From a virus, in the IMG/VR virus record IMGVR_UViG_3300034418_008659, positions 1 through 21,726 of that record: DNA of 21,726 nt; one strand, 5' to 3'. The notes below the pieces were generated by a model. The model had not been told where the DNA came from. It searched no databases and saw nothing but the letters and a program-made list of their open reading frames with translations. The position numbers were made by a program, and so were the translations under genes. Shown here piece after piece: positions 2,183 to 21,348 of the stretch (its first letter is position 1; every line of letters begins with the position of its first letter).

Positions 2183-2188
2183 GAGTTT

Positions 2189-3601: not shown

Positions 3602-3630
3602 TAGTTTCCCTATCCACTAATTAGCTAACA

Positions 3631-5358: not shown

Positions 5359-5369
5359 TCTGTATCTCC

Positions 5370-6275
5370 TTAGTTAAGAATTCTTAAAATTCTAACTGTA
5401 TTATTTGCACTATTCGCATTTGCTTTTAGTACGACATTATTGCTTTCAATGAAAGCATTAAAAGTTATTAAAGGTTCAGTAGACGTATATATTAACGCAT
5501 ATTCCGTTAGTTTTACATTCGTTCCATCATGAACTAATAATACCTCAGAACTTTGATATTGTCCATATGTAATATCTTCAGTATTCACAATTAGCTTTGC
5601 AAAATTGAAGTCATTTTTATTCCAAGTGCTTATCTCACTCTCTCCTATTGCAACATCAGTTGCTATAGCAGTATCAATTACAGCACTAGAGGTTGAAAAA
5701 GTAATATTAGAAACAGCTGCTAACTCAGATATATTTTCTACGCCAATAGTTCCAGTATATCTTGCGCCTGTTATAAAAATACTTTTACCTGAAAAATTTA
5801 TACCATTAGGTAGGTTTGTACCAATAAAGTGTAATACTCCTGAAGAGTAGTCAAAGAACCACTCATCATTATTACCTGATCCTGTTGTAAAAAGTTTTGT
5901 ACCGTTTGTTTCAGGAGAGCTCTCACCAGCGGTTGCAACGTAAACACTAACTAGATAAGTAGATCCAAATTCAGGTGGTATCCAGTTTGTAAGATTTGTT
6001 TTCCATGTTCTATATTGGGCAGCTGTATTATCAGCAGAACACTCAACTGTATTTCCTACAGCGTCTGAGTATCGGGTAACAACTCCTGATGAGGTTGCAG
6101 GATTGACTCCAGGAATTCTATCAGCTTGAATCCAAGAAGTATCGCCACGATTTAACATTGGTGATGGAATAGATTCGTTAGCTGCTAGTTTATTAGCATT
6201 AGTATCTGTTTTGGTTACTGCATAACCAACTTTTTTCCATAGATAGTCGACTTTTTGGGTATCAGTAATAGCCAT
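5370..6275 (-). CDS. virion/fibre-associated protein, KVDYLWKK family
   Basis: 301 residues starting MAITDTQKVDYLWKK. Its ATG overlaps the stop of the 1664-aa gene by one base (TAATG on the minus strand), which suggests translational coupling. The N-terminal 100 residues (KVDYLWKKVGY, TKTDTNANKLAANE, WIPPEFGSTYLVSVYV) match a type I recall from T4-like marine phages, usually annotated only as structural. Residues about 200-301 are a domain also ending the 575-aa fibre (ATDVAIGESE, TEDITYGQYQSSEVLLVHDG, VKLTEYALIYT), so the two genes probably share a terminal trimerisation or receptor-facing module. No enzymatic motif is seen. The exact virion position is unknown. Confidence 0.75.
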   Translation of the reverse strand: MAITDTQKVDYLWKKVGYAVTKTDTNANKLAANESIPSPMLNRGDTSWIQADRIPGVNPATSSGVVTRYSDAVGNTVECSADNTAAQYRTWKTNLTNWIPPEFGSTYLVSVYVATAGESSPETNGTKLFTTGSGNNDEWFFDYSSGVLHFIGTNLPNGINFSGKSIFITGARYTGTIGVENISELAAVSNITFSTSSAVIDTAIATDVAIGESEISTWNKNDFNFAKLIVNTEDITYGQYQSSEVLLVHDGTNVKLTEYALIYTSTEPLITFNAFIESNNVVLKANANSANNTVRILRILN

Positions 6276-9200: not shown

Positions 9201-11269
9201 GTATCAATTGCATCTGTGAGTGAATCACCAGATTCAAAAGACTGATATGCGCCGTCAGTAAACGTTCCGTCACTTGGAGCACCTAAGACAATTCCAACAC
9301 CTGATCCACCGCCTGAGTTGTCATTTTTAAAGAACAGATTACCTGCACCATCGGTGGCAAGAACTTGATTTGAAGTTCCGTCTTCGGTTGGGAAGGTTAG
9401 CGAGTTAACAGTAACAATCTCAAGTGCTGTAACATTTGCAGTTTGTGAAACTATGTTACCTGTAATATTACCAGTAACGTCACCTTCTACACCACCAACA
9501 ATTGTATTAGCACTGAGTGAGTTAGCGCTTAGTGTTTCAACATCAATGCTTACTGTAGTGATGCTATCGCTAACGTTTACAGTTGTTGCCTCAACATTTC
9601 CACGAACGTTACCCTCAAACCAGTCATAGGCTACCACATAGTTTGCATCAACTACATTTGCACTTAAATCGTCAAGAGTTACATCTCCAAAGCGTACATC
9701 GCCATGCGTTCCAGAAAACTCTTCTTCTGAGTTTACAGCGTCTACAAAGAATGTAAATGCATTAGCGTCATTATCATAACCAAAGAAACCAAGCTTGCTT
9801 TGTGAGTCTTCATAGTATCTAAATTCAACACCACGATCTTTACCGTCATCCACTGTAAGCGCACTATTGCCACCAAGAGTGACAATCGGATCTTGCAAGG
9901 TGGTAACTGTAGAATCTACCTGAGTAGTATTGCCTTCTACAATTAGATTACCTTGGACTAGTATATCTGTGCCGTCAAAAGTAAGCGTTCCCTCTGTAGC
10001 ACTAATGTTTGAACCGGCGATGCTAATGCCACCTACAGATGCGTTTGTGGAAATCTCTAACGACTCAGCTGAGATGGAAGTGTTAACACTCAATGCAGAG
10101 AAGTTAGTCTTGTTAAAGATTTCATTGATCGCTGCAACTAGATGTACTGTATTTGCTGTAACTAGATCTTCAAGCTCACCTGTGATAGCGTGAATTGCTG
10201 CGTTAGATGCAAGATCACTAGCAACAATCTGTACGCTTTCAACGGCATTTGCATCAGCTGCAATATCAACACCTGGAATGCGAATTGAACCGTCTGCGTC
10301 AACATTAAAGTTGCCGAGTGTTATTGTTTCAGAGGTGATTGATGTGTTAACACCAATAAAGATTGTTCCATCACTGACATAGATGTCTCGAATTTGAGCG
10401 TCAGGAGCACCAATGCTATATACAGCATTGCCATCTGGAATAAGATTAGAGGAGAAGATGATATTAGCATCAGGTGATGTGACGTTTGCAGAAAGATAGA
10501 GGTGTTTAGCGTCTGAAGAAAGAACTGTAATTTCATTCTGCAGACTACCCACACCAACGGTTACATTTCCATGACCTACTAGTGCATCAAGATTAGACTG
10601 AACTAAGTCTACATTAGCGCTTACACGAGTTTCAAGCGATTGCGCATTTGCCTCTAGTATATTTAAATTGGCAACGACACGCGTTTCAAGAGCATCAACA
10701 TTTGAAGATACGATATCTACATTAGCGGCAAGTGCAGTAACATTGTCTTGTACCTGTCCAGCAGAACCACCCGCAATGAGTGCATTGGCGGTTGCGGCAT
10801 ATGCATCAAGGTTCGCTTGGACCACAGCAGTATTTGCGGCCGCGCGAATTTCAGCGCTCTCGACATTCGATGACACAACGTCCACATTGGCGGTAAGAGC
10901 CACCACATTATCGTGTATAGAGGATAGATCGAGCTCTTCATCGTCTACAATTTGCCCAACTTCAAATCGAGCATTTGCAGCCACATAAACAAGCAAATCA
11001 CCATCGGTGACGCCAGTTAGATCAATATCGGTAAGAGAGTCAGAAGTAAGAGAGCTAAGATTGGATTGAACCAGATCTACATTAGAAGATACTATATCTA
11101 CATTAGCGGTAAGAGCATATACATTGTCTTGTACACGATTTACCTCATCAACAGCATCGCGACCCGCAGGACCACGTACGCCAACGCTTACAACCTTTGC
11201 GGTTCCTCCGCTTGGATCAGTTATAATTACTTGGTTGGTAGATTCTTGAACAGTGACGTCATGGCTCAT
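6275..11269 (-). CDS. giant PKD-repeat tail fibre/adhesin
   Basis: 1664 residues. It opens with a beta strand and a short collagen-like VRGPAGRDA hinge (31-39), followed by VQDNV/SSNVDLVQSN coiled-coil-like repeats to about residue 245. Residues about 436-515 are the GNLIVEGNTTQVDST...RYYEDSQSKLGFFGYD module shared with other fibres here, and about 626-647 the FPTEDGTSNQVLATDGAGNL motif. Four PKD (Ig-like) domains follow, at about 705-790, 795-890, 895-1003 and 1005-1117, each with a YxxxWGDG or YEWDFGD signature. The remaining 550 residues are Gly/Ser/Thr-rich and probably beta-structured. PKD domains in virion proteins usually act as spacers or sugar/surface-binding modules. The start overlaps the upstream stop as ATGA. 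A long tail fibre or large adhesin is the best reading. Confidence 0.85.
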   Translation of the reverse strand: MSHDVTVQESTNQVIITDPSGGTAKVVSVGVRGPAGRDAVDEVNRVQDNVYALTANVDIVSSNVDLVQSNLSSLTSDSLTDIDLTGVTDGDLLVYVAANARFEVGQIVDDEELDLSSIHDNVVALTANVDVVSSNVESAEIRAAANTAVVQANLDAYAATANALIAGGSAGQVQDNVTALAANVDIVSSNVDALETRVVANLNILEANAQSLETRVSANVDLVQSNLDALVGHGNVTVGVGSLQNEITVLSSDAKHLYLSANVTSPDANIIFSSNLIPDGNAVYSIGAPDAQIRDIYVSDGTIFIGVNTSITSETITLGNFNVDADGSIRIPGVDIAADANAVESVQIVASDLASNAAIHAITGELEDLVTANTVHLVAAINEIFNKTNFSALSVNTSISAESLEISTNASVGGISIAGSNISATEGTLTFDGTDILVQGNLIVEGNTTQVDSTVTTLQDPIVTLGGNSALTVDDGKDRGVEFRYYEDSQSKLGFFGYDNDANAFTFFVDAVNSEEEFSGTHGDVRFGDVTLDDLSANVVDANYVVAYDWFEGNVRGNVEATTVNVSDSITTVSIDVETLSANSLSANTIVGGVEGDVTGNITGNIVSQTANVTALEIVTVNSLTFPTEDGTSNQVLATDGAGNLFFKNDNSGGGSGVGIVLGAPSDGTFTDGAYQSFESGDSLTDAIDTLNEVIENVRNDTFVKSVSFTASPTSGNSPLSVALSISATGNANQYEIDWGDGTSNTTTSFSTPSHTYTVPEGGTQTITVTAKNTSGSGEGSEASNTRADYISLATPAPIAGFTLADDTLDSSSSVSLTNISQYTDSYEIDWGDGSANTSLGSSGAGTPGGGAITHAYTNTGGDATYTIILTAASSSNGQDDSTTDEVYVYSTHSPTFSSNVTSGNNEEATSGLPVRFTNTTSTSPGANSSYPDTIQYVWTWGDGTTNSVSSGSGSAGDTSQTIDHTFALSDREVQQTFEVQLQLYNGHSSSPFASANTTITVNPDPRAEFTGTFVNQSTGLTSSSVRTGYLFTDYLGNKRNVVTFLNQSENTADYEWDFGDSNTVILAEGADGTPTGGNIVHEYATVGNFTVELTANGTYSLSATDDTDTLSNYITIASNPTPPAGLSSKTITMSGEDVGTDPKLAANFDDNTGGASATAGDDLPRTVDQVGFITTDVLSTFAGTSNTGTLSATVNGSVDGSKAFTTGDDSGTYTSLVISSDIDANTVDSGGNTVSGGSKIYPTGFYRVFKAYIQKSATALSDGVNSFRLSHSESGNTNTLEFIKESLTTTPTIDLSSATLSQNAAGTQRYISGIPYYNTGGSVTLSGAQVYNWIDQTYRDTTTPFQIEAGTNDESTSGDVINSQTRSYTSIDGSSTFLSGGIPIKGTGINSGAAYSLGNININIDGTARAIETLKFRMLNVNGSGSYSEFTGTKIQAYSDSISGFNEELITVSDDLGATYDDDGKRIVISGASGATPGFNSATNYYTGAAWSGSQTIAGTDESVVRWGTLSHFTTDLSTGYLPVGPDLNTGRSGTQYFRMAFRRSNMSNFVVRISGQISSFNIALPGSGIDDSSGSNGWLDATVQYAGAGQPGSNTGNGGNGSDGCALTGGDIIPTGTSISNQTYTLTFGTENASNSTGNQVLISIGLASGDSITALSFEETS

Positions 11270-12738: not shown

Positions 12739-12757
12739 ATGTTGCATAAATGTCACA
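12739..12757 (-). promoter_or_regulatory. type A box, reversed copy
   Basis: The minus strand matches TGTGACATATTTGCAACAC at 16 of 19 positions. The same box occurs on the plus strand at 16509-16527, 18594-18612 and, more diverged, 20574-20592, each time just upstream of an early promoter. Here it lies about 45 bases before the -35 of the first early promoter. Confidence 0.5.
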
Positions 12758-13081: not shown

Positions 13082-13205
13082 ACCCTTTTAATTCAAAGGG
13101 TTAGCCCAGCCCGGGCGCCGAATTTTATCAATAAAAACAATGGGTTACAAGCTTGACGCGCCAGCGGAACAAATCGTGAACAAAAGGCAGGCGCTAACCC
13201 CTTGA
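13082..13205 (+). repeat. intergenic cassette E1 (expanded copy)
   Basis: A hairpin ACCCTTT-taattc-AAAGGGT (13082-13101) follows the first early gene. GGGTTAGC (13098-13105) is matched by GCTAACCC (13193-13200), an 8-base inverted repeat about 87 bases apart. In other cassettes these arms are only 15-25 bases apart. Between them lie a GC-rich core with CCCGGG (13104-13120) and a GAAC-N7-GAAC site. After the right arm comes CTTGAAAACATT, like the tail of the other cassettes. Confidence 0.65.
13167..13181 (+). promoter_or_regulatory. GAAC-N7-GAAC site 1
   Basis: GAACAAATCGTGAAC, identical in all 15 bases to sites at 13888-13902 and 13921-13935. It fits the alphaproteobacterial LexA box (GTTC-N7-GTTC, read on the other strand), but could equally be an iteron or another operator. 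About 90 bases upstream of the next -35. Confidence 0.55.
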
Positions 13206-13268
13206 AAACATTAATTAATTTAATTTATAAGTCATTGAAAACAAACAAAACTTTTTTCACTCTGCCTC

Positions 13269-13297
13269 TTGAAATTTGCCTTTGGAATGCTTATATT
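13269..13297 (+). promoter_or_regulatory. early promoter P2
   Basis: TTGAAA (13269-13274), 17-base spacer ending AATGCT, TATATT (13292-13297), then TATATAAGATAAACAA as leader. The layout and leader closely copy P1. Confidence 0.7.
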
Positions 13298-13331
13298 AGT
13301 TATATAAGATAAACAATTAAAGGATTAAAAA

Positions 13332-13799
13332 ATGACTTTTCAAAATATCGTAATCTTCGACTTAGATGGAACAACGATTGATAGCACTCATCGTCAAGCA
13401 ACTCTTGCTGATGGAACTCTCAATCTTGCCGCTTGGAAAGAAGCGGCAACGCCTGAAAAAATCTTTCAAGATCAAGTTTTACCGCTTGGTCATCTTGTCA
13501 ATCGCATTGGCAAAAAAGCCTATACCATTATTTGCACTGCTCGCAATATGAGCGATGCTGATTATGAGTTTTTAATGGATAATGGAATCAATGTTGATAA
13601 AATTATCTCAAGACCTCATGGCAACAATGAGCCTGATGGTGAATTGAAAAAGAAACAACTTAATTCGTTTCTATCACTCAAACAATTCAAACATAAAAAT
13701 AAGATCATGTTTGATGATGCTTCTTCTGTAAGATCAATTTTAAGAAAAATTGGAATTACAGTTATCCATCCAGATAAGGTTAATGCAAAATTAGCCTAA
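13332..13799 (+). CDS. HAD-superfamily phosphatase, copy 1
   Basis: 155 residues with AAAGGA before the ATG. HAD motif I is FDLDGT with nucleophile D10 and acid/base D12; motif II is the Thr of CTAR (68-71); a Lys in ELKKKQL (106-108) serves motif III; MFDD (126-129) gives the motif IV acids. The region SRPHGNNEPDG resembles the 3'-phosphatase domain of T4-type polynucleotide kinases, so the substrate may be a nucleic-acid end or nucleotide, but there is no kinase domain. It forms its own transcription unit between cassettes E1 and E2. A paralogue sits at 18709-19173 with the same motif spacing and length. Substrate is not determinable here. Confidence 0.88.
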   Translation: MTFQNIVIFDLDGTTIDSTHRQATLADGTLNLAAWKEAATPEKIFQDQVLPLGHLVNRIGKKAYTIICTARNMSDADYEFLMDNGINVDKIISRPHGNNEPDGELKKKQLNSFLSLKQFKHKNKIMFDDASSVRSILRKIGITVIHPDKVNAKLA

Positions 13800-13814
13800 T
13801 TTCCCAATTAAATC

Positions 13815-13846
13815 AAACACTTACGGCCGCCCGGCCGCCTGCTAAC
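13815..13846 (+). repeat. intergenic cassette E2
   Basis: CAAACACTTA arm, a 16-base G/C-only core (13824-13839, containing CCCGG), and GCTAAC as right arm. The usual tail GTCA-TGAAA-CATTGAAT appears only about 100 bases later (near 13950-13970), so the GAAC-site segment seems to be inserted into the cassette. Confidence 0.75.
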
Positions 13847-13887
13847 TATTTGTTTTTATTGCATTTTTTAGCATGAGGCACCGCTTG

Positions 13888-13935
13888 GAACAAATCGTGA
13901 ACAGATCAGGGTCTAGCCGAGAACAAATCGTGAAC
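13888..13935 (+). promoter_or_regulatory. GAAC-N7-GAAC sites 2 and 3
   Basis: Two exact copies of GAACAAATCGTGAAC at 13888-13902 and 13921-13935. Their starts are 33 bases apart, about three helical turns, so bound proteins would lie on one face of the DNA. They sit 60-110 bases upstream of P3. Confidence 0.6.
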
Positions 13936-13997
13936 AAAAAAAATTACAAGTCACTGAAAACATTGAATAAAAAAATGAAAAAAATGCGTTTTAGGGG

Positions 13998-14025
13998 TTG
14001 AAATAATCTGAATAATGCTTATATT
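13998..14025 (+). promoter_or_regulatory. early promoter P3
   Basis: TTGAAA (13998-14003), 16-base spacer ending AATGCT, TATATT (14020-14025). Same AATGCTTATATTA stretch as P2. It serves the nuclease-like gene at 14053. Confidence 0.65.
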
Positions 14026-14052
14026 AATATTATGAACAACGGAGGTTATTCC

Positions 14053-14661
14053 ATGATTAACTCTTTTTCTGATCTTGATTCTCGTTTTGCCGCTATCGCT
14101 GGCAAGCCTCATGCAGTCACTCGCAAGAGCGCGGGCGCGGTTGGTGAATTGTTTGAAACGTTAATGATTGGTGGCATTGTTGGCAATCAAAAGGGTGCAG
14201 ATTTTGCCGCGATTGATACAGAAGCAAAGGTTCACTATGCTAAGAATCCCACAACAATTTTCTCTTTCGCTTTTACGCAAGGTATGAAGCCAAGCGATTT
14301 TTCCAAGCGGTTTAATTCTGGAATTGCTCGCGCTGGCGCGACTAACAAGCATGGTCATAGCGTGACTGTTAAAGGTGATATGGTTCAGGTCACTGTAAAT
14401 GGTCAAGCGGTGGCTGGCTGGACTATTGCCGAGATTGCCGAGCGTATCGAAATGAAGATGCCAAATCTCGCAATGGTTGACGCTACCAAGCGCGGCAATC
14501 AGGTGATCTTCAATGAGATGTTTGTTGGCAAACGGGTAGTCGCTGAGCGGTTTATCGAAGCGATTGCAAGCGGTGCGGTAGTGATCGAGATGCGTAGCGG
14601 TGCGGTGCAGTTTAGAGCAAAGCCAGCGACCATCAAAGAATGGTTTGAGACAATCCATTAA
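14053..14661 (+). CDS. putative MutH/Sau3AI/MvaI-type DNA endonuclease
   Basis: 202 residues from the ATG at 14053, chosen because GGAGG (14041-14045) sits 7 bases before it; an ATG at 14032 would place that site inside the gene. The stretch V30-G-E-L-F-E35 is followed by D50 and by E57-A-K59, that is E-x14-D-x6-E-x-K. This is nearly the layout of the MutH catalytic region (E56, D70, E77-x-K79, in a VGxLLE context) and of MvaI/BcnI-type enzymes, members of the PD-(D/E)xK fold. The expected function is sequence-specific DNA cleavage in the cytoplasm, perhaps of host DNA. No methyltransferase is seen nearby. The gene forms its own unit and is followed by a hairpin. The family call rests on motif spacing and is moderate. 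Confidence 0.6.
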   Translation: MINSFSDLDSRFAAIAGKPHAVTRKSAGAVGELFETLMIGGIVGNQKGADFAAIDTEAKVHYAKNPTTIFSFAFTQGMKPSDFSKRFNSGIARAGATNKHGHSVTVKGDMVQVTVNGQAVAGWTIAEIAERIEMKMPNLAMVDATKRGNQVIFNEMFVGKRVVAERFIEAIASGAVVIEMRSGAVQFRAKPATIKEWFETIH

Positions 14662-14662
14662 G

Positions 14663-14682
14663 GTGTGGCAGAAATGCCACAC
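14663..14682 (+). terminator. hairpin with GAAA loop after the nuclease gene
   Basis: GTGTGGCA-GAAA-TGCCACAC is a perfect 8-base stem with a GNRA tetraloop, directly behind the stop codon. No T-tract follows, so it is either a weak terminator or a 3'-end stabiliser of the message. Confidence 0.55.
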
Positions 14683-14718
14683 TCTAGAAGAAAAATGAAA
14701 GAAAAACGCAATTAACCC

Positions 14719-14747
14719 TTGAAATATCACGCTAGATGTATTATATA
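14719..14747 (+). promoter_or_regulatory. early promoter P4
   Basis: TTGAAA (14719-14724), 17-base spacer, TATATA (14742-14747). Belongs to the TTGAAA group with P2 and P3; no GC cassette precedes it, only the hairpin. Confidence 0.65.
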
Positions 14748-14774
14748 TAAAGGGTAACAACGAGAGGTAATACG

Positions 14775-14981
14775 ATGCAAGTTATGATTCAAGATGTTCC
14801 TGTAATGACTGATAAAGAACTGGAAACAATCCAGATCAATCTTGAGGGAACTCATGTTGTGGGCTTTAATGCTCAACTGTTGTCTGCTGTTAAATCAGAA
14901 TTGGAGACTAGAAATGCAGAATGGTTCGCAGAAACCTTTGATGAAGAAGGCGAAGAAGATCTCTTTGAACTCTTCGCCTAA
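14775..14981 (+). CDS. small acidic early protein, unknown
   Basis: 68 residues, MQVMIQDVPVMTDKEL..., preceded by GAGAGG at a 7-base distance. The last third is strongly acidic (EWFAETFDEEGEEDLFELFA), with the aromatic residues interspersed. Small acidic phage proteins often bind host enzymes or mimic DNA, but nothing here shows that. It heads a unit with two membrane peptides (15057-15140 and 15145-15348). Family not recognised. Confidence 0.7.
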   Translation: MQVMIQDVPVMTDKELETIQINLEGTHVVGFNAQLLSAVKSELETRNAEWFAETFDEEGEEDLFELFA

Positions 14982-15056
14982 GATCACCCAGATCATTAGA
15001 TCTAAAAAAGGCATCCATGCCTTACGCAATGAAATCGCGCTGAGAGAGGTAAAACT

Positions 15057-15140
15057 ATGCTCTGGAAATCAATAGAAATCTTTTGTATCATTCTTGGGAT
15101 GCTGATGGTATCCTCACTTCCAATCTTGCTGATATGGTGA
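15057..15140 (+). CDS. 27-aa membrane peptide
   Basis: MLWKSIEIFCIILGMLMVSSLPILLIW with GAGAGAGG just upstream (about 15041-15049). The whole peptide is one hydrophobic helix. The stop lies four bases before the ATG of the next membrane protein, so the two may be translated together. Too short for family assignment; good ribosome-binding site and spacing support it. Confidence 0.5.
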   Translation: MLWKSIEIFCIILGMLMVSSLPILLIW

Positions 15141-15144
15141 TGCT

Positions 15145-15348
15145 ATGTTTGGTTTGATTGGAACTGTTCTTGTAATCTGGCAAATGAGCGCGTTGGCTAA
15201 TGGCGCGCCTCATTGGGCTTTGATGATGGGTTGTGGTGCGGCTGTGGCTTGGATGGTGCATGGTTATCAGCGTCAAGATATATGGATACTGACAACCAAT
15301 GTTATCCTACTAGGTATCGCAACATATGGTTTAGTTTCAAACACTTAG
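15145..15348 (+). CDS. three-helix small membrane protein
   Basis: 67 residues with three hydrophobic segments at about 1-19, 24-41 and 46-64. The last part (AWMVHGYQRQDIWILTTN) recalls the WxxYGxxxxDxxIxxxN pattern of SemiSWEET/PQ-loop proteins, which are also three-helix units, but the protein is shorter than usual SemiSWEETs and the first-helix PQ is missing, so this is only a possibility. A small phage membrane modulator is an alternative. Its last residues SNT and the stop TAG lie inside cassette E3 (CAAACACTTAG). Confidence 0.65.
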   Translation: MFGLIGTVLVIWQMSALANGAPHWALMMGCGAAVAWMVHGYQRQDIWILTTNVILLGIATYGLVSNT

Positions 15349-15379
15349 GAGGCGCCCGGGGGCGGGCTAAGTCATTGTT
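15338..15379 (+). repeat. intergenic cassette E3
   Basis: CAAACACTTAG arm (CTTAG at 15344-15348), 17-base G/C-only core with CCCGGG (15351-15367), and CTAAGTCATTG as right arm (CTAAG at 15367-15371). The left arm codes for the end of the preceding gene. Confidence 0.8.
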
Positions 15380-15407
15380 ATTAAACGAAACTTTTTTTAT
15401 TTTTTTG

Positions 15408-15440
15408 TGCATTTTGTTGTAATCTGAACACTATTGGTCG
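15408..15440 (+). promoter_or_regulatory. type B box upstream of P5
   Basis: TGCATTTTGTTGTAATCT followed by GAACACTATTGGTCG. The pair recurs at 17578-17609 and 19440-19473 at the same distance before an early promoter, so it is probably a regulator or polymerase contact site. Confidence 0.6.
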
Positions 15441-15449
15441 CTTATAGGA

Positions 15450-15478
15450 CAGACTTTTCTAAAAATGTCGTGTATAAC
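15450..15478 (+). promoter_or_regulatory. early promoter P5
   Basis: CAGACT (15450-15455), followed by TTTCT as in the other promoters of this group, 17-base spacer, TATAAC (15473-15478) within TATAACTATAG. The -35 is one of the weaker versions. Confidence 0.65.
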
Positions 15479-15510
15479 TATAGATAAGATAAACAAATAA
15501 GGAATGAAAG

Positions 15511-15675
15511 ATGTTTAAGATTATCGTTGATACACTACCATTCGATCCACCATATCGCAAAATTCCAGCGGTATATAAGGATCGCTTTGGGAATGTAGTT
15601 AAAAACCCAGCCAAGCACCTTGCAAAGATGCAGGCTCGTGAATTGGCTGAAAAGATTTTGAAGGAAGGAAAATAA
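15511..15675 (+). CDS. 54-aa basic early protein
   Basis: MFKIIVDTLPFDPPYRKIP..., with AAGGAA six bases upstream and P5 before it. Lys/Arg-rich, with a C-terminal helix-like stretch (NPAKHLAKMQARELAEKIL). The stop is followed after one base by the ATG of the deoxyribosyltransferase-like gene, whose ribosome-binding site (GGAAGGA) lies in the end of this one, so the two are coupled. Family not recognised. Confidence 0.7.
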   Translation: MFKIIVDTLPFDPPYRKIPAVYKDRFGNVVKNPAKHLAKMQARELAEKILKEGK

Positions 15676-15676
15676 A

Positions 15677-16126
15677 ATGCTGACATTTTACACTGCTGGA
15701 AAAGTTTGGCACAATAGCAAATTTCAGGCTCTGCGTGGTAAGGGTTTCCCTGTAAAGGCACGCTGGATTGATCTAGATAATGAAAGCGATTTTGTTCTAA
15801 ATCGTAAGGATCAACTCTGGAATCTCTGCTATGAGGATGTGCGAGATAGTGACTTTGTGTTGCTATATTGTGAAGATGCTAGCGAAGAACAGCGCGGTGC
15901 GCTTGTTGAGATTGGCATGGCCTTTGGCTTTGGCAAGCCTGTATATGCTGTTGGATCGTGTAAAACAATCAAGCCAAATGAAATCTCTGATGTGGCTTTT
16001 ACCCACTTCAAAAATTGGACTTGGTTAAATACTGATGATCTGACTGAAGGTGCAATGATTGCGCTAGAGACTGAGCGCATGAAGCGCGTTGCTAAACAAA
16101 TCGAACTTGAACTGGAGACAGCATAA
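15677..16126 (+). CDS. nucleoside 2-deoxyribosyltransferase-like protein
   Basis: 149 residues. FYTAGKVWH at the start, then CYEDVRDSDFVLLYCED (51-67) and RGALVEIGMAFGFGKPVYAVG (73-93). This fits the Rossmann-like nucleoside 2-deoxyribosyltransferase-like superfamily, in which the Asp of DxxxxD helps hold the sugar and the Glu of the RGxxxEIGxA motif (E78) is the nucleophile. Enzymes of this type move or hydrolyse deoxyribose from nucleosides or nucleotides, so a role in nucleotide recycling or depletion during infection is plausible. It lies second in a three-gene unit. The exact substrate cannot be read from the sequence. Confidence 0.8.
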   Translation: MLTFYTAGKVWHNSKFQALRGKGFPVKARWIDLDNESDFVLNRKDQLWNLCYEDVRDSDFVLLYCEDASEEQRGALVEIGMAFGFGKPVYAVGSCKTIKPNEISDVAFTHFKNWTWLNTDDLTEGAMIALETERMKRVAKQIELELETA

Positions 16127-16422
16127 TGCCTTATATTCCTGAACCACAACGCTTTGAAGCAGACAAGATTATGCGTGATGAAGGGCTGTTGCAATATGTA
16201 CCCTCAAACGCTGGAGAACTGAACTGGATAGTTACAACGCTGATTGATAACTATCTCAAACATACTGGCACACGCTATGCCCATCTTAATGAGATGATAG
16301 GCGCGTTGGAATGTTGCAAACTTGAACTCTATCGTCGTATTGCGTCACCCTATGAGGATGATGTAAAAGAGATAAATGGCGATGCGTATTTTTGCAATCG
16401 CCAGATGGGGGCTGATTACTAG
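16126..16422 (+). CDS. conserved phage protein, MPYIPE family
   Basis: 98 residues. Start overlaps the previous stop by one base (TAATG). MPYIPEPQRFEAD, AGELNWIVTTLIDNYL, RYAHLNEMIGALECCKLELYRR and ASPYEDDVKEINGDAY match, as I recall, a widespread family of about 90-100 residue proteins in phages and bacteria with no known function (GELNY... and ALExxKxExYRR signatures). Mostly helical, soluble. Context with a nucleotide enzyme suggests metabolism but does not prove it. Confidence 0.8.
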   Translation: MPYIPEPQRFEADKIMRDEGLLQYVPSNAGELNWIVTTLIDNYLKHTGTRYAHLNEMIGALECCKLELYRRIASPYEDDVKEINGDAYFCNRQMGADY

Positions 16423-16427
16423 CCCTC
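16407..16427 (+). terminator. hairpin overlapping a stop codon, then T-rich run
   Basis: GGGGGCT-gattact-AGCCCTC forms a 7-base stem (one G-T pair) that includes the last codons and stop of the preceding gene, followed by ATTTTCTCTGCTTTTTC. A plausible terminator of the three-gene unit. Confidence 0.5.
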
Positions 16428-16441
16428 ATTTTCTCTGCTTT

Positions 16442-16496
16442 TTCAACCACTTACGAGGCACCGGGCGCGACCTGCTAAGTCCTTGAATTTATTGAG
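16442..16496 (+). repeat. intergenic cassette E4
   Basis: TTCAACCACTTAC arm, GC-rich core with CCGGG (16455-16474), GCTAAGTCCTTGAA right arm and the second half-repeat TTATTGAG. It follows a hairpin rather than a gene end. Confidence 0.75.
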
Positions 16497-16508
16497 TTTT
16501 TTCGGGTG

Positions 16509-16527
16509 TGTGACATATTTGCAACAC
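16509..16527 (+). promoter_or_regulatory. type A box upstream of P6
   Basis: TGTGACATATTTGCAACAC, an imperfect GTG...CAC dyad, followed by AAAAAACGCAT and TCAATTT, also conserved behind the copy at 18594-18612. Confidence 0.6.
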
Positions 16528-16562
16528 TAGTCATAAAAAACGCATTGGGGTCAATTTAGTTG

Positions 16563-16591
16563 TTGACTTTTTAGTTTTTTTGTTGTATAAC
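16563..16591 (+). promoter_or_regulatory. early promoter P6
   Basis: TTGACT (16563-16568), T-rich 17-base spacer, TATAAC (16586-16591) in TATAACTATAT. Near-consensus for this group. Confidence 0.75.
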
Positions 16592-16620
16592 TATATATGA
16601 AATTAACGAGGAGAATTATC

Positions 16621-16908
16621 ATGATGGTCATCGAAACTCACCAAAAGGCTTTTGGTTTTCACACTGTTTTCACTCTTGATGGTGAGGTTGTTAGTCAACT
16701 TCACACTAACTTTCAGCCTACGATTGAGGAAATCGAGGCGAGGCGTGAACAGATTCTCACACCTGGATGTGATGACTGTGCTTTTCTAAAGCATCGCTGT
16801 GGCGAATGTTTAGAATACGATTTTGAGGACGATGACTATGATGATGGTCAACCCTCTTGGGAACAAGAGTGGGAAGATTTTGGGGAGGTATATTCTGATG
16901 AGTATTGA
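16621..16908 (+). CDS. small Cys-rich (zinc-ribbon-like) acidic protein
   Basis: 95 residues. The ATG at 16621 is chosen because GAGGAG (16607-16612) lies 8 bases upstream; an ATG at 16597 has the site inside. C50-x2-C53 and C60-x2-C63 form a two-knuckle zinc-binding pattern, followed by a very acidic tail (EDDDYDDGQ...). A protein- or nucleic-acid-contacting adaptor is possible. It overlaps the PPK2 gene by 11 bases, with the PPK2 ribosome-binding site inside its last codons. Family not recognised. Confidence 0.72.
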   Translation: MMVIETHQKAFGFHTVFTLDGEVVSQLHTNFQPTIEEIEARREQILTPGCDDCAFLKHRCGECLEYDFEDDDYDDGQPSWEQEWEDFGEVYSDEY

Positions 16909-17527
16909 GAACTTAATCAAACTAAATGAATTTGCTGAACAGGTGCATAACCAAGGTAAGCGTGTGGCTATCCTATTAGAAGGTCGTGATGGTGCTGGTA
17001 AGTCTGGTACTATTCGAGAATTAACTCGCTATCTTCCACCATATACCTATAAGGTACTTCCATCGTTTATGCCAACTAAACGCATGATGAAAGCATGGTT
17101 GCCTGAATGGAAAAAACTACTTCCTGAATCTGGACAGATAGTTTTCTATGATCGCTCTTGGTATTCTCGCGCATTACTTCAGCCTGTTATGGGTTGGTGT
17201 TCAGATCGTCAATATCAAAACTTTATGTCAAAAGTTATTGGTTGGGAATGTTCACAAGATGTTTCTATTATGAAAATTTGGCTATCTGTTGATGAAGCAA
17301 AGCAACGAGCATTGTTAGAGCGGCGAGAAAGTGACCCTCTGCGTTATTGGAAATTCTCACCTAATGACGCTAAGACTGTTAGCAAGTTTGATGACATCTC
17401 TATAAAAAAGCAATCTATGTTTTCCACAGATAACAACTGGCAAATTATAGATATGTCTGACAAAGATCAGGGTCGTGATAATGCGTTGGTGCGAGTCGTT
17501 GATTTCCTAGCGAAATCAATGGCTTAG
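16898..17527 (+). CDS. ppk2: PPK2-family polyphosphate kinase
   Basis: 209 residues from the ATG at 16898 (GGGGAGG a few bases before it); an upstream ATG at 16823 would add 25 residues inside the previous gene and lacks a site. Walker A is EGRDGAGKSG (28-37), Walker B-like FYDRSWYSRA at 83-92, a lid arginine region LLERRESDP (139-147) and the WKFSPND motif (151-157). These are the signature elements of polyphosphate kinase 2, which transfers phosphate between polyphosphate and nucleotides (GDP/ADP or NMPs). At 209 residues it is a short single-domain form. In an infected cell it could make NTPs from host polyphosphate. Single-domain class and substrate cannot be told by eye. Confidence 0.9.
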   Translation: MSIENLIKLNEFAEQVHNQGKRVAILLEGRDGAGKSGTIRELTRYLPPYTYKVLPSFMPTKRMMKAWLPEWKKLLPESGQIVFYDRSWYSRALLQPVMGWCSDRQYQNFMSKVIGWECSQDVSIMKIWLSVDEAKQRALLERRESDPLRYWKFSPNDAKTVSKFDDISIKKQSMFSTDNNWQIIDMSDKDQGRDNALVRVVDFLAKSMA

Positions 17528-17567
17528 CCAGCGGCCGGGGGCGCGCTAAGTCATTGAAATCATTGAA
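17515..17567 (+). repeat. intergenic cassette E5
   Basis: ATCAATGGCTTAGC arm with CTTAGC (17523-17528), core with CCGGG (17531-17546), GCTAAG (17545-17550) and tandem TCATTGAAATCATTGAA. CTTAGC/GCTAAG is a perfect 6-base inverted repeat. The PPK2 stop codon lies inside the left arm. Confidence 0.8.
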
Positions 17568-17577
17568 TAATTAATTT

Positions 17578-17609
17578 GCATTTTGTCGTGAATTGAACAC
17601 TATTGGTCG
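17578..17609 (+). promoter_or_regulatory. type B box upstream of P7
   Basis: TGCATTTTGTCGTGAATT then GAACACTATTGGTCGT, almost identical to 15408-15440. Confidence 0.6.
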
Positions 17610-17618
17610 TTCTCAGGC

Positions 17619-17647
17619 GAGAAAGTTTTAATTTTTTACTGTATAAC
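17619..17647 (+). promoter_or_regulatory. early promoter P7, weak -35
   Basis: TATAAC (17642-17647) in TATAACTATAT with the usual T-rich spacer, but the -35 position reads GAGAAA (17619-17624) rather than TTGACT. It may need an activator at the type B box. Confidence 0.5.
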
Positions 17648-17669
17648 TATATACATGATGAGAAAACAA

Positions 17670-17801
17670 ATGAACAAAAAAGCAAATCCAATGGCAAAGT
17701 CACTGCGAGTTTTTCGCCCTGCTGTTGTGCGCTCTAAAAAAGCCTACTCAAGAAAGGGTCAAAAGATTGACGCAAAAAGGTTGGATGTGTCAAATTACTG
17801 A
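17670..17801 (+). CDS. tiny very basic protein
   Basis: 43 residues from the ATG at 17670 (MNKKANPMAKSLRVF...), rich in Lys/Arg (VVRSKKAYSRKGQK). An in-frame ATG at 17655 would give 48 residues but would lie on the expected transcription start; GATGAG seven bases before 17670 is a weak site. The stop TGA overlaps the approach to promoter P8. Nucleic-acid binding is likely from charge alone. Family not recognised. Confidence 0.55.
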   Translation: MNKKANPMAKSLRVFRPAVVRSKKAYSRKGQKIDAKRLDVSNY

Positions 17802-17802
17802 C

Positions 17803-17831
17803 TTGACTTTTCTGTTTTTTTGTGGTATAAC
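17803..17831 (+). promoter_or_regulatory. early promoter P8
   Basis: TTGACT (17803-17808), T-rich 17-base spacer, TATAAC (17826-17831) in TATAACTATAT. It starts two bases after the previous stop and has no GC cassette before it. Confidence 0.75.
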
Positions 17832-17875
17832 TATATTATCAAATGAAACGAAATAGCCAAATAGGAGGATTACTC

Positions 17876-18208
17876 ATGGCTCAAGCATCTACAAAGGTTG
17901 TCAACTATACCTCAGAAATGGTTGAAAAAATGGTTGCTATGTATTCAGAACTTGGCAACGATGGTCTGGATCAGATCGCAGAAGCAATGGACAAATCTGT
18001 TCGCTCTGTTCGTTCCAAACTTGTTCGCGAGGGCGTTTATATTGCGTCCCCAAAGGGCAAGCCTTCTTCTTCAAAGTCTCAAGAGCCAACTAAAAAAGAA
18101 CTCTTGAACCAACTGGAAGAAATTGTTGGTTTTGATTGCACCTCACTTACAGGGGCAACCAAACAAGGCTTGGCAATGCTGATTGACTACACTCAGCAAC
18201 AAGCCTAA
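17876..18208 (+). CDS. small helix-turn-helix-like protein, copy 1
   Basis: 110 residues from 17876, where AGGAGG (17863-17868) stands 7 bases upstream; the ATG at 17843 is rejected. A helical DNA-binding-like unit covers about 10-60 (VNYTSEMVEKMVAMYSELG, IAEAMDKSVRSVRSKLVREGVYIA), then a Ser/Lys linker and a C-terminal helical part (KKELLNQLEEIVGFD...TGATKQG). It resembles a family frequent in marine phages. SVRSVRSKLVREGVYIA is the likely recognition helix, shared exactly with the copy at 21037-21348. Regulatory or nucleoid-binding role is inferred. Confidence 0.82.
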   Translation: MAQASTKVVNYTSEMVEKMVAMYSELGNDGLDQIAEAMDKSVRSVRSKLVREGVYIASPKGKPSSSKSQEPTKKELLNQLEEIVGFDCTSLTGATKQGLAMLIDYTQQQA

Positions 18209-18211
18209 CTT

Positions 18212-18230
18212 GAGGGGGCTTTGCCCCCTC
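18212..18230 (+). terminator. perfect GC hairpin between genes
   Basis: GAGGGGGC-TTT-GCCCCCTC, a perfect 8-base stem with a 3-base loop directly after the stop codon. There is no T-run and more genes follow, so partial termination or message processing/stability is likely. Confidence 0.6.
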
Positions 18231-18255
18231 ACCTCTCTAGACTAAGGATGAAAAA

Positions 18256-18405
18256 ATGGCAAAAAAATTCTCTACTTCCAAAATCCAGCATGAACCAAAA
18301 TTCAAGCACACTTCACAGGCTGGACGCAAGGGATCGCTCAAAACTTCTAGCATGAACAAGCACAAGCGCAGACGCTCTAAACTCTACGCACGCCAAGGTC
18401 GTTAA
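18256..18405 (+). CDS. 49-aa basic protein, SSMNKHKRR motif
   Basis: MAKKFSTSKIQHEPKF..., with AAGGATG upstream. Ends KTSSMNKHKRRRSKLYARQGR. This ending, as I recall, is a recurrent small basic protein motif in marine phages with no known function. Strong positive charge suggests RNA or DNA binding. It sits between the HTH-like gene and a membrane peptide in one unit. Confidence 0.65.
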   Translation: MAKKFSTSKIQHEPKFKHTSQAGRKGSLKTSSMNKHKRRRSKLYARQGR

Positions 18406-18423
18406 CTTTTCTGGAGGATTGAC

Positions 18424-18528
18424 ATGAAAAAATTTTTCGTTGGTCTTTATCTTGCTTACAGTGTTGCCACTGATACCATCATCTGGGGTGGGGCTATCTA
18501 TATACTTATCAAGGGCTTGATTATTTAA
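18424..18528 (+). CDS. 34-aa single-helix membrane peptide
   Basis: MKKFFVGLYLAYSVATDTI..., with GGAGG (18413-18417) six bases upstream. Positively charged start followed by one or two hydrophobic segments (FFVGLYLAYSV and IIWGGAIYILIKGLII). Strong ribosome-binding site supports it as a real gene. Function unknown. Confidence 0.6.
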   Translation: MKKFFVGLYLAYSVATDTIIWGGAIYILIKGLII

Positions 18529-18533
18529 CAATA

Positions 18534-18592
18534 TCAAGCACTTGCACGGCCCCGGGGCCTGGTTAACTCATTGAATTCATTACACTTTTTCA
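18534..18592 (+). repeat. intergenic cassette E6
   Basis: TCAAGCACTTGC arm, core with the 12-base palindrome GGCCCCGGGGCC (18548-18559), GGTTAACTCATTGAATTCATT right arm. The arms here are degenerate (TTG instead of TTAG). Confidence 0.75.
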
Positions 18593-18593
18593 C

Positions 18594-18612
18594 TGTGACA
18601 TATTTACAACAC
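18594..18612 (+). promoter_or_regulatory. type A box upstream of P9
   Basis: TGTGACATATTTACAACAC, one mismatch to the copy at 16509-16527, followed again by AAAAAAAGCAT and TCAATTT. Confidence 0.6.
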
Positions 18613-18647
18613 TCCTACAAAAAAAGCATCTGGCATCAATTTTCCGC

Positions 18648-18677
18648 TTGACTTTTCCTATATTTTCATGCTATAAA
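18648..18677 (+). promoter_or_regulatory. early promoter P9
   Basis: TTGACT (18648-18653), 18-base T-rich spacer, TATAAA (18672-18677). Confidence 0.7.
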
Positions 18678-18708
18678 AGGTTATCAATAACAAAAAAGGA
18701 ATATCCTA

Positions 18709-19173
18709 ATGAAAGAAAAAAGAGTTTTTATTTTTGACCTAGATGGAACAGTTATAGATAGCGAGCATCGCACACCACGCGATAGCGAAGGGAAACTAAT
18801 TCTACAAAAATGGTTTGATCTTGCTACACCTTCAAACATTGCTAAAGATACTCTACTTCCTCTGGCTTCACTTTTCAGAAAAGCAAAACAAAGACGACAT
18901 CATGTTGTGATCTGCACAGCCAGAACTCTCACAAATGCAGATCGTGCATTCTTAGCAAGACACGCACTTGCTGCCCCTATTGTTCTTTCAAGACCAGAAG
19001 GTGATATTACACCAGATGGAATCTTTAAGAAACAACTCTTAGAAGACCTTTTTAAGATTCGTTTTCACAACATGAAAAAAATCATGTTTGATGACAATGA
19101 TGAGGTTAGATCAGAGGTTCGCAAACTTGGCATCAAGGTTGTTGATCCTAGACCACTAAATGAGGTTGCATGA
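18709..19173 (+). CDS. HAD-superfamily phosphatase, copy 2
   Basis: 154 residues, AAAAAGGA upstream. FDLDGT gives D10 and D12; ICTAR (68-72) supplies the motif II Thr; TPDGIFKKQL (101-110) the motif III Lys; MFDDND (126-131) the final acids. Length, order and linking segments match the copy at 13332-13799, including LSRPEGDITPDG against ISRPHGNNEPDG, so the two arose by duplication long ago. Again no kinase domain. The stop overlaps the next start (ATGA), so this copy is coupled to the 19170 gene. Substrate not known. Confidence 0.88.
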   Translation: MKEKRVFIFDLDGTVIDSEHRTPRDSEGKLILQKWFDLATPSNIAKDTLLPLASLFRKAKQRRHHVVICTARTLTNADRAFLARHALAAPIVLSRPEGDITPDGIFKKQLLEDLFKIRFHNMKKIMFDDNDEVRSEVRKLGIKVVDPRPLNEVA

Positions 19174-19391
19174 TGTTAATACTAAAAGGACGCTCTAGGC
19201 ACGGCAAAAATCGCATTGCTGCTTTTGGCTCTAGGTTTGAGATTGCAGAAACACGACAGCACATAAACACTGTCACACATCGCAATTGCATTGGACCTTT
19301 TGCTTTTTTGCACTCGCTTGATACCCCAGAGGCTAGCCGCTGGATATCACTTACAGATGATCCAGATTTCGAAATCATTTCAAACACTTAA
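19170..19391 (+). CDS. small early protein, SRHGKNRI motif
   Basis: 73 residues, MMLILKGRSRHGKNRIAAFG..., starting inside the stop of the HAD gene (ATGATG; the second ATG is an equally possible start). The SRHGKNRI stretch recurs, as I recall, in small phage proteins of unknown function. The C-terminal ITLT/ISLTDDPDFEIISNT ends with SNT and TAA, encoded by the left arm of cassette E7, exactly as in the unrelated protein ending at 15348. Confidence 0.7.
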   Translation: MMLILKGRSRHGKNRIAAFGSRFEIAETRQHINTVTHRNCIGPFAFLHSLDTPEASRWISLTDDPDFEIISNT

Positions 19392-19430
19392 GCGCGGCCC
19401 GGGGGCTGGCTAACTCATTGAAATCATTGG
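19379..19430 (+). repeat. intergenic cassette E7
   Basis: TCAAACACTTAAGC arm, 15-base G/C-only core with CCCGGG (19392-19406), GGCTAACTCATTGAAATCATTGG right arm. The left arm supplies the last three codons and stop of the preceding gene. Confidence 0.8.
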
Positions 19431-19439
19431 AAAAGAAAA

Positions 19440-19473
19440 TGCACTTTTGTCGCAAAAAGAACAATATTGGTCG
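19440..19473 (+). promoter_or_regulatory. type B box upstream of P10
   Basis: TGCACTTTTGTCGCAAAAA then GAACAATATTGGTCG; differs from the 17578 copy mainly in the spacer and one base of the second part. Confidence 0.55.
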
Positions 19474-19482
19474 TTTTAGGGC

Positions 19483-19511
19483 TTGACTTTTCTGAATTTA
19501 TGCTGTATAAC
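19483..19511 (+). promoter_or_regulatory. early promoter P10
   Basis: TTGACT (19483-19488), 17-base spacer beginning TTTCT, TATAAC (19506-19511) in TATAACTATAT. Confidence 0.75.
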
Positions 19512-19541
19512 TATATCAACAATGACTGATAAGGAATGAAA

Positions 19542-20231
19542 ATGAAATCGACTAAATTTTTGGTGCTAGATGTTGAGACTGATGGGCGTGATAATGTTGT
19601 TGACCTTGGTTGGTGTCTGCGAACACGCAAAGAGGTTCTAGGTTCTGGAGGCTTTTTGATGATGGATATTTTTGCTAAAAAAGGTTCTTACTATTCAAAG
19701 GATTATCTTGGCATGGCTGACAGACGCGAGATCGAGCCAACACTGTTCGAGCAAGCGCGAGAATTTATTAACAACTTGGTCAACTCACTAGATGGTCGCG
19801 TTATTCTCTGCGCCTATAATGCGTCATTTGACAGGCGTGCGCTCAACAAAACTTCACTTCGTCATGATGGCACTTTTTTCTTCAATCGCTATTTTGACTG
19901 GATGGATATTTGGCGTGCTTGGGCTAATGTTGTCCCACGCGCCTATCGTGAACTTGCCCCTTTCTCAGCATCTGGCAAATATCTTTCGACAACTGCTGAG
20001 AATGTTTATCGCTTTGAGTTTCAAGACCCATGGTTTGAGGAAGCACACACAGGCGAGGCAGATGCGATAATTGAGAGCGATATTCTGGATCGCGTTCTAA
20101 AACGCAAAAAACGCTTACCAATCAACGACATGAAAGGCATGGTCTGGAGAGACTTTGCCGCTTCTAGCGATGATGAAACACTACAACGCGAATTTGAACA
20201 AACACTAACAAGGATGGGATCAAATGGCTAA
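19542..20231 (+). CDS. DEDDh 3'-5' exonuclease (DnaQ-like)
   Basis: 229 residues from the ATG at 19542, with AAGGAA (19531-19536) upstream; the ATG at 19536 overlaps that site. ExoI motif LDVETDG gives D10 and E12; ExoII is YNASFDRRAL near residue 93; the ExoIII motif is HTGEADA, with His and Asp five apart as in DEDDh enzymes. These residues bind the two metal ions that cleave DNA or RNA from the 3' end. No polymerase domain is attached. It could proofread, process ends, or degrade nucleic acid in infection. The last eight bases overlap the next gene. Confidence 0.87.
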   Translation: MKSTKFLVLDVETDGRDNVVDLGWCLRTRKEVLGSGGFLMMDIFAKKGSYYSKDYLGMADRREIEPTLFEQAREFINNLVNSLDGRVILCAYNASFDRRALNKTSLRHDGTFFFNRYFDWMDIWRAWANVVPRAYRELAPFSASGKYLSTTAENVYRFEFQDPWFEEAHTGEADAIIESDILDRVLKRKKRLPINDMKGMVWRDFAASSDDETLQREFEQTLTRMGSNG

Positions 20232-20436
20232 ACGCAACTATGGCACAATTAGCGGCAAATGCTCACATTGTGGAATCAATCTTTATGCAGAATTACAAAA
20301 TCGTCCTCACAGCATTGCAATGCCTTGCAATCTGCGCGGTTGTCCTTTTGAAACAAGAGAGGCACAACAGCAACGATATCAAGAGGATATGAAGGTTTTG
20401 CCAGCCAGCGAAGGCATGACATATTATGAGGGCTAA
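20224..20436 (+). CDS. small zinc-finger-like protein
   Basis: 70 residues, overlapping the exonuclease stop by 8 bases. C13-x2-C16 and C35-x4-C40 form a probable zinc site (GKCSHCGINLYAE, MPCNLRGCPF). Basic start, acidic end. The coupling to a nuclease suggests a nucleic-acid contact, but nothing proves it. Its stop codon lies in the loop of a 12-base-pair hairpin. Confidence 0.75.
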   Translation: MAKRNYGTISGKCSHCGINLYAELQNRPHSIAMPCNLRGCPFETREAQQQRYQEDMKVLPASEGMTYYEG

Positions 20437-20450
20437 AAAGCCTTCATAAT
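20423..20450 (+). terminator. 12-bp hairpin containing the stop codon
   Basis: ATTATGAGGGCT-AAAA-AGCCTTCATAAT, 12 base pairs with one G-T pair, and TTTTA soon after. Likely the 3' end of the exonuclease/zinc-finger unit. Confidence 0.6.
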
Positions 20451-20500
20451 CAATGTTTTAGCGGGGCCCCGGGCACCCTCTAACCTTTTGAAATATAACA
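20447..20500 (+). repeat. intergenic cassette E8
   Basis: AATCAATGTTTTAGC arm, 14-base G/C-only core (20461-20474) with GGGGCCCCGGG, CTCTAACCTTTTGAAATATAACA right arm. A second short GC patch with CCCGG follows at 20512-20524. The most diverged copy. Confidence 0.65.
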
Positions 20501-20573
20501 ATAAATACGCACCCGGCCGCGCCGACCATTTGTCAAGTGAAATCGTACATTCTTCTGCACATTTTTCTCTTGC

Positions 20574-21036: not shown

Positions 21037-21348
21037 ATGGCAAAGACTGTTAACTACACCAAAGAGCAGGTGTCTAAAATGCTCGAAATGTACGCTGAAG
21101 TTGGCAATGAGGGTCTTGAGCAGATTGCTGAGGCTGTCGAAAAGTCAGTACGCAGTGTACGATCTAAACTGGTACGCGAAGGTGTGTATATTGCTACGCC
21201 TCGCGCTGCGGCAACTCGCAAGGATATGGGTCCTAGCAAGAAAGAGTTGCTGAACGACCTCCAGAGCATCGTTGGCTTTGATGTCACTGGTTTCTCTGGG
21301 GCGACTAAGCCAGCAATTCAAGCGCTAATCACTCGACTGAGTGCCTAA
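21037..21348 (+). CDS. small helix-turn-helix-like protein, copy 2
   Basis: 103 residues, MAKTVNYTKEQVSKML..., with GTGAGG (about 21025-21030) upstream. Paralogue of 17876-18208: IAEAxxKSVRSVRSKLVREGVYIA(T/S)P, (P)(S/T)KKELLN and IVGFD.TG..GATK are shared, the linker differs. Third codon positions differ widely while the protein core is fixed, so the duplication is old and the sequence is under selection. Expected to bind DNA through the SVRSVRSKLVREG helix. It has its own promoter and a strong terminator, so it is a single-gene unit. Confidence 0.85.
   Translation: MAKTVNYTKEQVSKMLEMYAEVGNEGLEQIAEAVEKSVRSVRSKLVREGVYIATPRAAATRKDMGPSKKELLNDLQSIVGFDVTGFSGATKPAIQALITRLSA

Follow-up and report, generated by a model that had tools for sequence, protein, structure and literature searches.

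Enterobacterial RIB/RIP repeats, the bacterial interspersed mosaic elements (BIMEs) that contain a site for integration host factor (IHF), are intergenic, lie near the 3' ends of genes and hold one IHF site between two palindromic units; integron cassettes carry single genes, each with an imperfect inverted repeat, attC, as its boundary. The element described here lies between genes of a virus in IMG/VR record IMGVR_UViG_3300034418_008659, of which positions 1 to 21,726 (21,726 nucleotides, one strand, 5' to 3') form the stretch analysed, hereafter the window. It consists of two IHF-like sites, or arms, around a GC-rich core. Like RIB/RIP, it is an intergenic repeat with IHF-like sites close to the 3' ends of genes; unlike them, it has two inverted IHF-like sites outside one GC core. 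Like attC, it bounds single-gene cassettes as an imperfect inverted repeat; its arms, however, do not pair and the cassettes have apparent promoters of their own (attC core motifs were not noticed in the sequence, on which no integron search was run). Promoter early stem-loop cassettes (PeSLs) are known from T4-like myoviruses (Arbiol 2010; Comeau 2014; both as cited in PMC4503421); they are small regulatory cassettes with host-type promoters at the junctions of shuffled early-region modules. The elements of the window likewise stand at module junctions, in what gene content suggests to be an early region; they differ in belonging to phages whose large terminase is T5-related and whose protease and major head protein are fused, and in their inverted IHF-like pair and GC core with a lineage-specific word. 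A last comparison is with the restriction endonucleases BcnI (CC^SGG) and MvaI (CC^WGG) of family PF15515: a protein of the window shares their whole-length predicted fold (Z 15-17) and their E/D/E-x-K catalytic layout, but is phage-encoded, from a gene among cassettes bounded by CCSGG, and the phage records yielded no C5 or N4/N6 methyltransferase.

The GC cores are probably the centres of elements that mark cassette boundaries in the host-takeover region of a lytic phage, each made of a pair of IHF-like sites around a core specific to the lineage. How lytic phages assemble these fast-changing regions is a long-standing question. Each core (about 17-22 nt) is flanked by two arms in inverted orientation, the TTR end of each pointing to the core. 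The arm motif found de novo, AWATCAANSRSTTA, fits the published IHF consensus WATCAANNNNTTR. An expectation-maximisation motif search in the AT-rich flanks of GC islands, taken from the window's phage group by a selection in which the arms played no part, yields AWATCAANSRSTTAGS, which contains that consensus, in 87% of 434 flanks. At least 8 of the 9 consensus positions are matched, facing the core, in 79% of flanks; the corresponding share is 4% for random windows, 2% for shuffled flanks and 7% for the opposite strands of the same flanks. Both flanks reach this level in 161 of 235 islands, counts that shift slightly with the definitions of GC island (windows of 12-14 nt) and arm (on one or both sides), which differed between analyses. 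By this consensus the arms have the sequence of IHF binding sites, and they may be bound by the IHF of the host; a literature search for the arm sequence returned nothing relevant. In the window, both arms score at least 8/9 in 7 of 9 elements, the right arm of element 1 is displaced by about 70 nt, and the ninth core is armless:

13091..13205, + strand: element 1, left arm ATTCAAAGGGTTA (13091-13103), core GCCCAGCCCGGGCGCCG (13104-13120), right arm GCTAACCCCTTGA from 13193; the spacer of about 70 nt between core and right arm contains a LexA-type box
13811..13855, + strand: element 2, arms AATCAAACACTTA (9/9 to the IHF consensus) and AAACAAATAGTTA (reverse complement, 8/9), core CGGCCGCCCGGCCGCC
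15335..15380, + strand: element 3, arms TTTCAAACACTTA and TAACAATGACTTA (reverse complement), both 8/9, core GGAGGCGCCCGGGGGCGGGC; the end of the left arm holds the stop codon of open reading frame (ORF) 15145-15348
16441..16488, + strand: element 4, arms TTTCAACCACTTA and ATTCAAGGACTTA (reverse complement), both 8/9, core GAGGCACCGGGCGCGACCTGC
17514..17559, + strand: element 5, arms AATCAATGGCTTA (9/9) and TTTCAATGACTTA (reverse complement, 8/9), core GCCAGCGGCCGGGGGCGCGC
18532..18576, + strand: element 6, arms TATCAAGCACTTG (9/9) and ATTCAATGAGTTA (reverse complement, 8/9), core GCACGGCCCCGGGGCCTGG
19378..19423, + strand: element 7, arms TTTCAAACACTTA and TTTCAATGAGTTA (reverse complement), both 8/9, core AGCGCGGCCCGGGGGCTGGC
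20448..20493, + strand: element 8, arms AATCAATGTTTTA (9/9) and TTTCAAAAGGTTA (reverse complement, 8/9), core AGCGGGGCCCCGGGCACCC
20508..20527, + strand: ninth GC core CGCACCCGGCCGCGCCGACC, arms unrecognisable (best 6/9), a decayed element or unrelated

Scanning viral contigs for the arm-core-arm pattern gives at least 119 matching stretches; a search of 257 Gb of bacterial and archaeal genomes with its GC-core version gives 3 matches, of which one, in a short contig, has convincing elements. The general pattern occurs in 19 of 20 viral records, mostly in 2 to 9 copies, and a control pattern in 1, figures that speak to copy number and not to prevalence, as these records were picked for having the element. 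Its carriers form three phage sets, the window's own (group A) and groups B and C. The best matches of the group A large terminase, all distant, are T5-type phages; the group also has a protease-major head protein fusion and a different gene complement. The fusion, the portal and the terminase matches speak against a T4-like phage. Among isolated phages no near relatives were found by DNA, nor by the nuclease, nucleoside-deoxyribosyltransferase-like or D5-like proteins, and the first 50 kb of the T5-type isolate JSF10 contain no elements. Two contigs, L252 and L265, are unusually rich in elements, each with about 19 GC cores in about 20 kb.

Contigs of group A carry the same gene families in varying order, with elements between them: a HAD phosphatase, a nucleoside deoxyribosyltransferase-like protein with DUF6899, an exonuclease, a D5-like DNA-binding protein, a small Cys-rich protein and a nuclease. 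Of 256 points where homology blocks between contigs begin, 58 are no more than 40 nt from a core centre (random expectation about 19), 54 of them in both partners; part of this clustering is nevertheless expected without recombination, as homology fades in intergenic DNA for ordinary reasons. Between the window and contig L240, a 600-bp block of 90% identity (the promoter region and HAD gene of the HADa cassette) starts exactly at the right arm of element 1, and the sequence beyond the core of that element is unrelated. The cassette genes of the window include a polyphosphate kinase 2 homologue (16901-17527; PF03976, E 1e-41) and paralogous small D5-like DNA-binding proteins with a PHROG match (17876-18208 and 21037-21348), each in its own cassette and present in up to 3 copies per relative.

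The core word is specific to the phage lineage: the longest shared word averages 8.95 within contigs compared with 7.09 +/- 0.09 when the labels are permuted. For the window and its kin this word is CCSGG, mostly CCCGGG. Lineage-specific words may amount to a code that determines which phages swap genes.

Mechanistically, host IHF would bind each arm and bend it, so that the stiff GC core stands exposed between the bends; the element would end one transcription unit and precede the promoter of the following one; and, with arms and core repeated at every junction, it would also be the place where recombination joins and exchanges cassettes. Each lineage would retain its own word. A boundary element that can be recognised from sequence, occurs in many uncultured phages and is nearly absent from bacterial genomes would make cassette shuffling traceable and testable.

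Several points weigh against this reading, besides the ordinary fading of homology. The phage records searched contain no DNABII (IHF/HU) protein, so that IHF would have to come from the host. In groups B and C, arms also stand head to head at a spacing of exactly 3 nt (103 cases), which is too tight for two simultaneous IHF dimers; another protein with a similar site may therefore bind there. The consensus promoter score beside elements shows only a small excess (8.99 versus 8.41 for shuffled sequence). Cores fold no better than shuffled cores (z -0.08), in a test that is weak because GC-only sequences fold anyway. Finally, the host is probably alphaproteobacterial, an assignment whose sole basis is a set of boxes of the form GAAC-N7-GAAC, a form that LexA sites have in Alphaproteobacteria; often exactly GAACAAAACGTGAAC, they recur near elements in group A (L005, L200, L203, L204, L210, L250 and others), and control of the cassettes by the SOS system (LexA) is possible.

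Between elements 2 and 3 lies the gene for the nuclease:

14053..14661, + strand: nuclease gene, predicted BcnI/MvaI fold, 202 aa

That this protein has a catalytic layout like that of BcnI and MvaI had been proposed in the original prediction, and is borne out: it scores 25.2 bits with PF15515 (MvaI_BcnI), just above the gathering threshold of 25; its predicted structure (pLDDT 81) has six Foldseek matches at E<=0.001, all of them BcnI and MvaI chains and far above the others; the fold matches over the whole length (VIA-align Z 17.0 for MvaI and 16.0 for BcnI); and residues E35, D50, E57 and K59, which can be aligned with the catalytic residues of MvaI, are invariant in ten homologues. The evidence thus supports a BcnI/MvaI-fold nuclease, with 16-19% sequence identity to the solved enzymes and a putative cleavage specificity. 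The HADa gene and ORF 15145 adjoin each other in most relatives without the nuclease; in the window the nuclease gene, ORF 14775 and element 2 sit between them. The location of the nuclease cassette differs among clades, and L240 is a close example of the empty arrangement. This distribution fits a mobile cassette. A different nuclease gene, of the GIY-YIG type, lies between two elements of a phage with another core word (L015, 7761-8435).

Any role of the nuclease at the cores is conjectural. In nuclease-bearing contigs, the window included, 47 of 50 cores contain CCSGG (shuffled-core expectation 10.4) and 38 contain CCCGGG, compared with 120 and 30 of 247 cores in relatives where the nuclease was not seen, these being contig fragments, so that absence from the fragment is not absence from the phage; the association was noticed in the same data in which it was tested, and added relatives extended it. 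In a tree of the tail-terminator protein, dereplicated like the preceding count because several contigs are near-copies, the nuclease falls in three separate clades, each with nearly all-CCSGG cores, and among the phages examined it is found only alongside CCSGG-type cores. L099 and L208, close kin without the nuclease, nevertheless have CCSGG in every core; the word can thus exist without the nuclease.

It is quite possible, if somewhat short of an even chance, that the nuclease serves to degrade host DNA or to attack rival phages, cutting at CCNGG, and that shared ancestry links it to the core word by coincidence: there are three clades only, and L099, L208 and L240, which lack the nuclease in the sequence examined, can share the word. 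What such a coincidence leaves aside is that all three clades have nearly all-CCSGG cores and most relatives do not.

More tentatively, the nuclease may be a cassette-borne, homing-like endonuclease, cutting the CCSGG cores of co-infecting nuclease-free phages, whereupon repair would copy in its own or neighbouring cassettes, while bound protein, timing or DNA modification would protect the cores of the phage that carries it. This would complement the boundary element, not replace it, and a restriction-enzyme fold would serve gene mobility if the nuclease reads one core word. The BcnI/MvaI fold with intact catalytic residues, the restriction of the nuclease to CCSGG-type cores in three clades (47/50 versus 120/247 cores), and its varied placement between genes that adjoin elsewhere, as in L240, all agree with it. 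So does the lack of C5 and N4/N6 methyltransferases (PF00145, PF01555), of which there are none in 12 records that include a 70-kb relative, the records being fragments and other methyltransferase families lying outside the search. However, MvaI is an equally good structural match and cuts CCWGG, so that CCSGG specificity is putative here; L099 and L208 have CCSGG in all cores without the nuclease; an association over three clades could be due to chance; and the phage's own cores would have to be spared. As for the self-targeting or protected-site system of the original prediction, a classical protected-site system would be without a visible protector, no C5 or N4/N6 methyltransferase having been found in the 12 records.

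A doubtful alternative is that these are ordinary promoter and terminator cassettes resembling PeSLs, with the GC core an RNA hairpin terminator and CCSGG a by-product of its GC-rich palindrome. Half of the elements between tandem genes have the upstream stop codon at most 40 nt from their start, promoter-like sequences follow downstream, the core is GC-rich, and cassettes shuffle as PeSLs are reported to do (cited in PMC4503421). The arms, however, do not behave as a stem: across 123 elements and 112 head-to-head units they have four variable positions, at which compensatory pairing is not above shuffles, and thus look more like protein-bound DNA than like an RNA hairpin. A stem-loop supported by covariation was accordingly not found, and the cores, by the weak folding test, are no stabler than shuffled ones. 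Nor is there a T-run immediately 3' of the core; separate terminator-like hairpins precede elements 4 and 8, and the core word is lineage specific and commoner than composition gives. RNA hairpin or terminator was rejected as the main identity of the element on account of the arms without covariation, the weak core folding signal and these separate hairpins. Rfam and tRNA searches of the window gave no matches.

Unlikely as a whole is a built-in system of cassette exchange, in which paired IHF sites would show the lineage core word at every cassette junction and a cassette-borne, BcnI-like nuclease reading CCSGG would open these junctions in co-infecting relatives; exchange of cassettes would then be confined to lineages that share a word.

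The starting observation, that CCSGG is confined to the GC cores and every core has CCCGG or CCGGG, holds for the window: 14 overlapping matches form 9 separate sites (13110, 13830, 15355, 16461, 17535, 18551, 19398, 20468 and 20512), all within cores (13110-20516), so that 9 of 9 cores have CCSGG and the remaining ~21.5 kb none. The expectation of the order of ten sites elsewhere was overstated; Markov models fitted on the window outside the cores give 13 at order 0, 5.7 at order 1 (dinucleotide), 1.8 at order 2 (trinucleotide) and 0.7 at order 3 (tetranucleotide), the last two values being low owing to a general scarcity of CCGG (4 observed versus 17 expected) and GGCC (7 versus 29). CCWGG is at its expectation (19 versus 18.4). 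The count therefore bears out the zero outside the cores, but this zero is near the higher-order expectation, and a 70-kb relative with a homologous nuclease has, besides those in its cores, 17 CCSGG within ORFs away from arms; core exclusivity is thus a trait of the window, not a rule. The absence outside the cores is the ordinary general shortage of CCGG and GGCC and is not due to the cassettes; the real surprise is the occupancy of the cores by CCSGG.

That a host enzyme for CCSGG or CCGG purged its sites and the cores merely escaped is very improbable: CCGG and CCSGG are indeed depleted in all groups (observed/expected, O/E, for CCGG 0.08 in group B/C contigs), but CCSGG outside elements is depleted alike in nuclease-bearing contigs (pooled, 20 versus 60 expected, O/E 0.33) and mixed-core contigs without the nuclease (pooled, 53 versus 168, O/E 0.32), and most strongly in the other phage groups, which showed no nuclease and whose cores themselves mostly avoid CCSGG (2 versus 76, O/E 0.03), whereas cores of the window's lineage hold it at 4.5 times the shuffled expectation, which argues for retention, not escape. 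A genome-wide avoidance driven by the nuclease was rejected, depletion being the same with and without it. Of the earlier interpretation there survive the nuclease fold and the CCSGG cores in all nuclease carriers; restriction avoidance does not, and the IHF-like arms and lineage words had gone unremarked.

Further features accompany the elements of the window:

16403-16431: terminator-like hairpin, separate, before element 4
20423-20450: terminator-like hairpin, separate, before element 8
16563..16591, + strand: promoter-like TTGACT-17-TATAAC downstream of element 4, by direct reading
17803-17831, 18648-18677 (after element 6) and 19483-19511 (after element 7): similar promoter-like sites, repeat families D5 and D6
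13167..13181, + strand: LexA-type box GAACAAATCGTGAAC (GAAC-N7-GAAC), also at 13888 and 13921

Contig L250 has a run of GAAC-N7-GAAC boxes. The motif TGTTGCATAAATGTCACA or its complement occurs near several elements (window 12740-12757, 16507-16526 and 18597-18614; L240 2833; L005 3223), and a conserved stretch close to GAACACTATTGGTCGT lies upstream of several cassette -10 boxes (window ~15427, ~17596 and ~19462; L061). In L155, L108, L150, L118, L146 and other group B/C contigs, the head-to-head arms form 25-bp near-palindromes on either side of the core. Outside the cassettes, positions 2-11269 of the window contain long tail-fibre-like ORFs with repeated VQDNV motifs.

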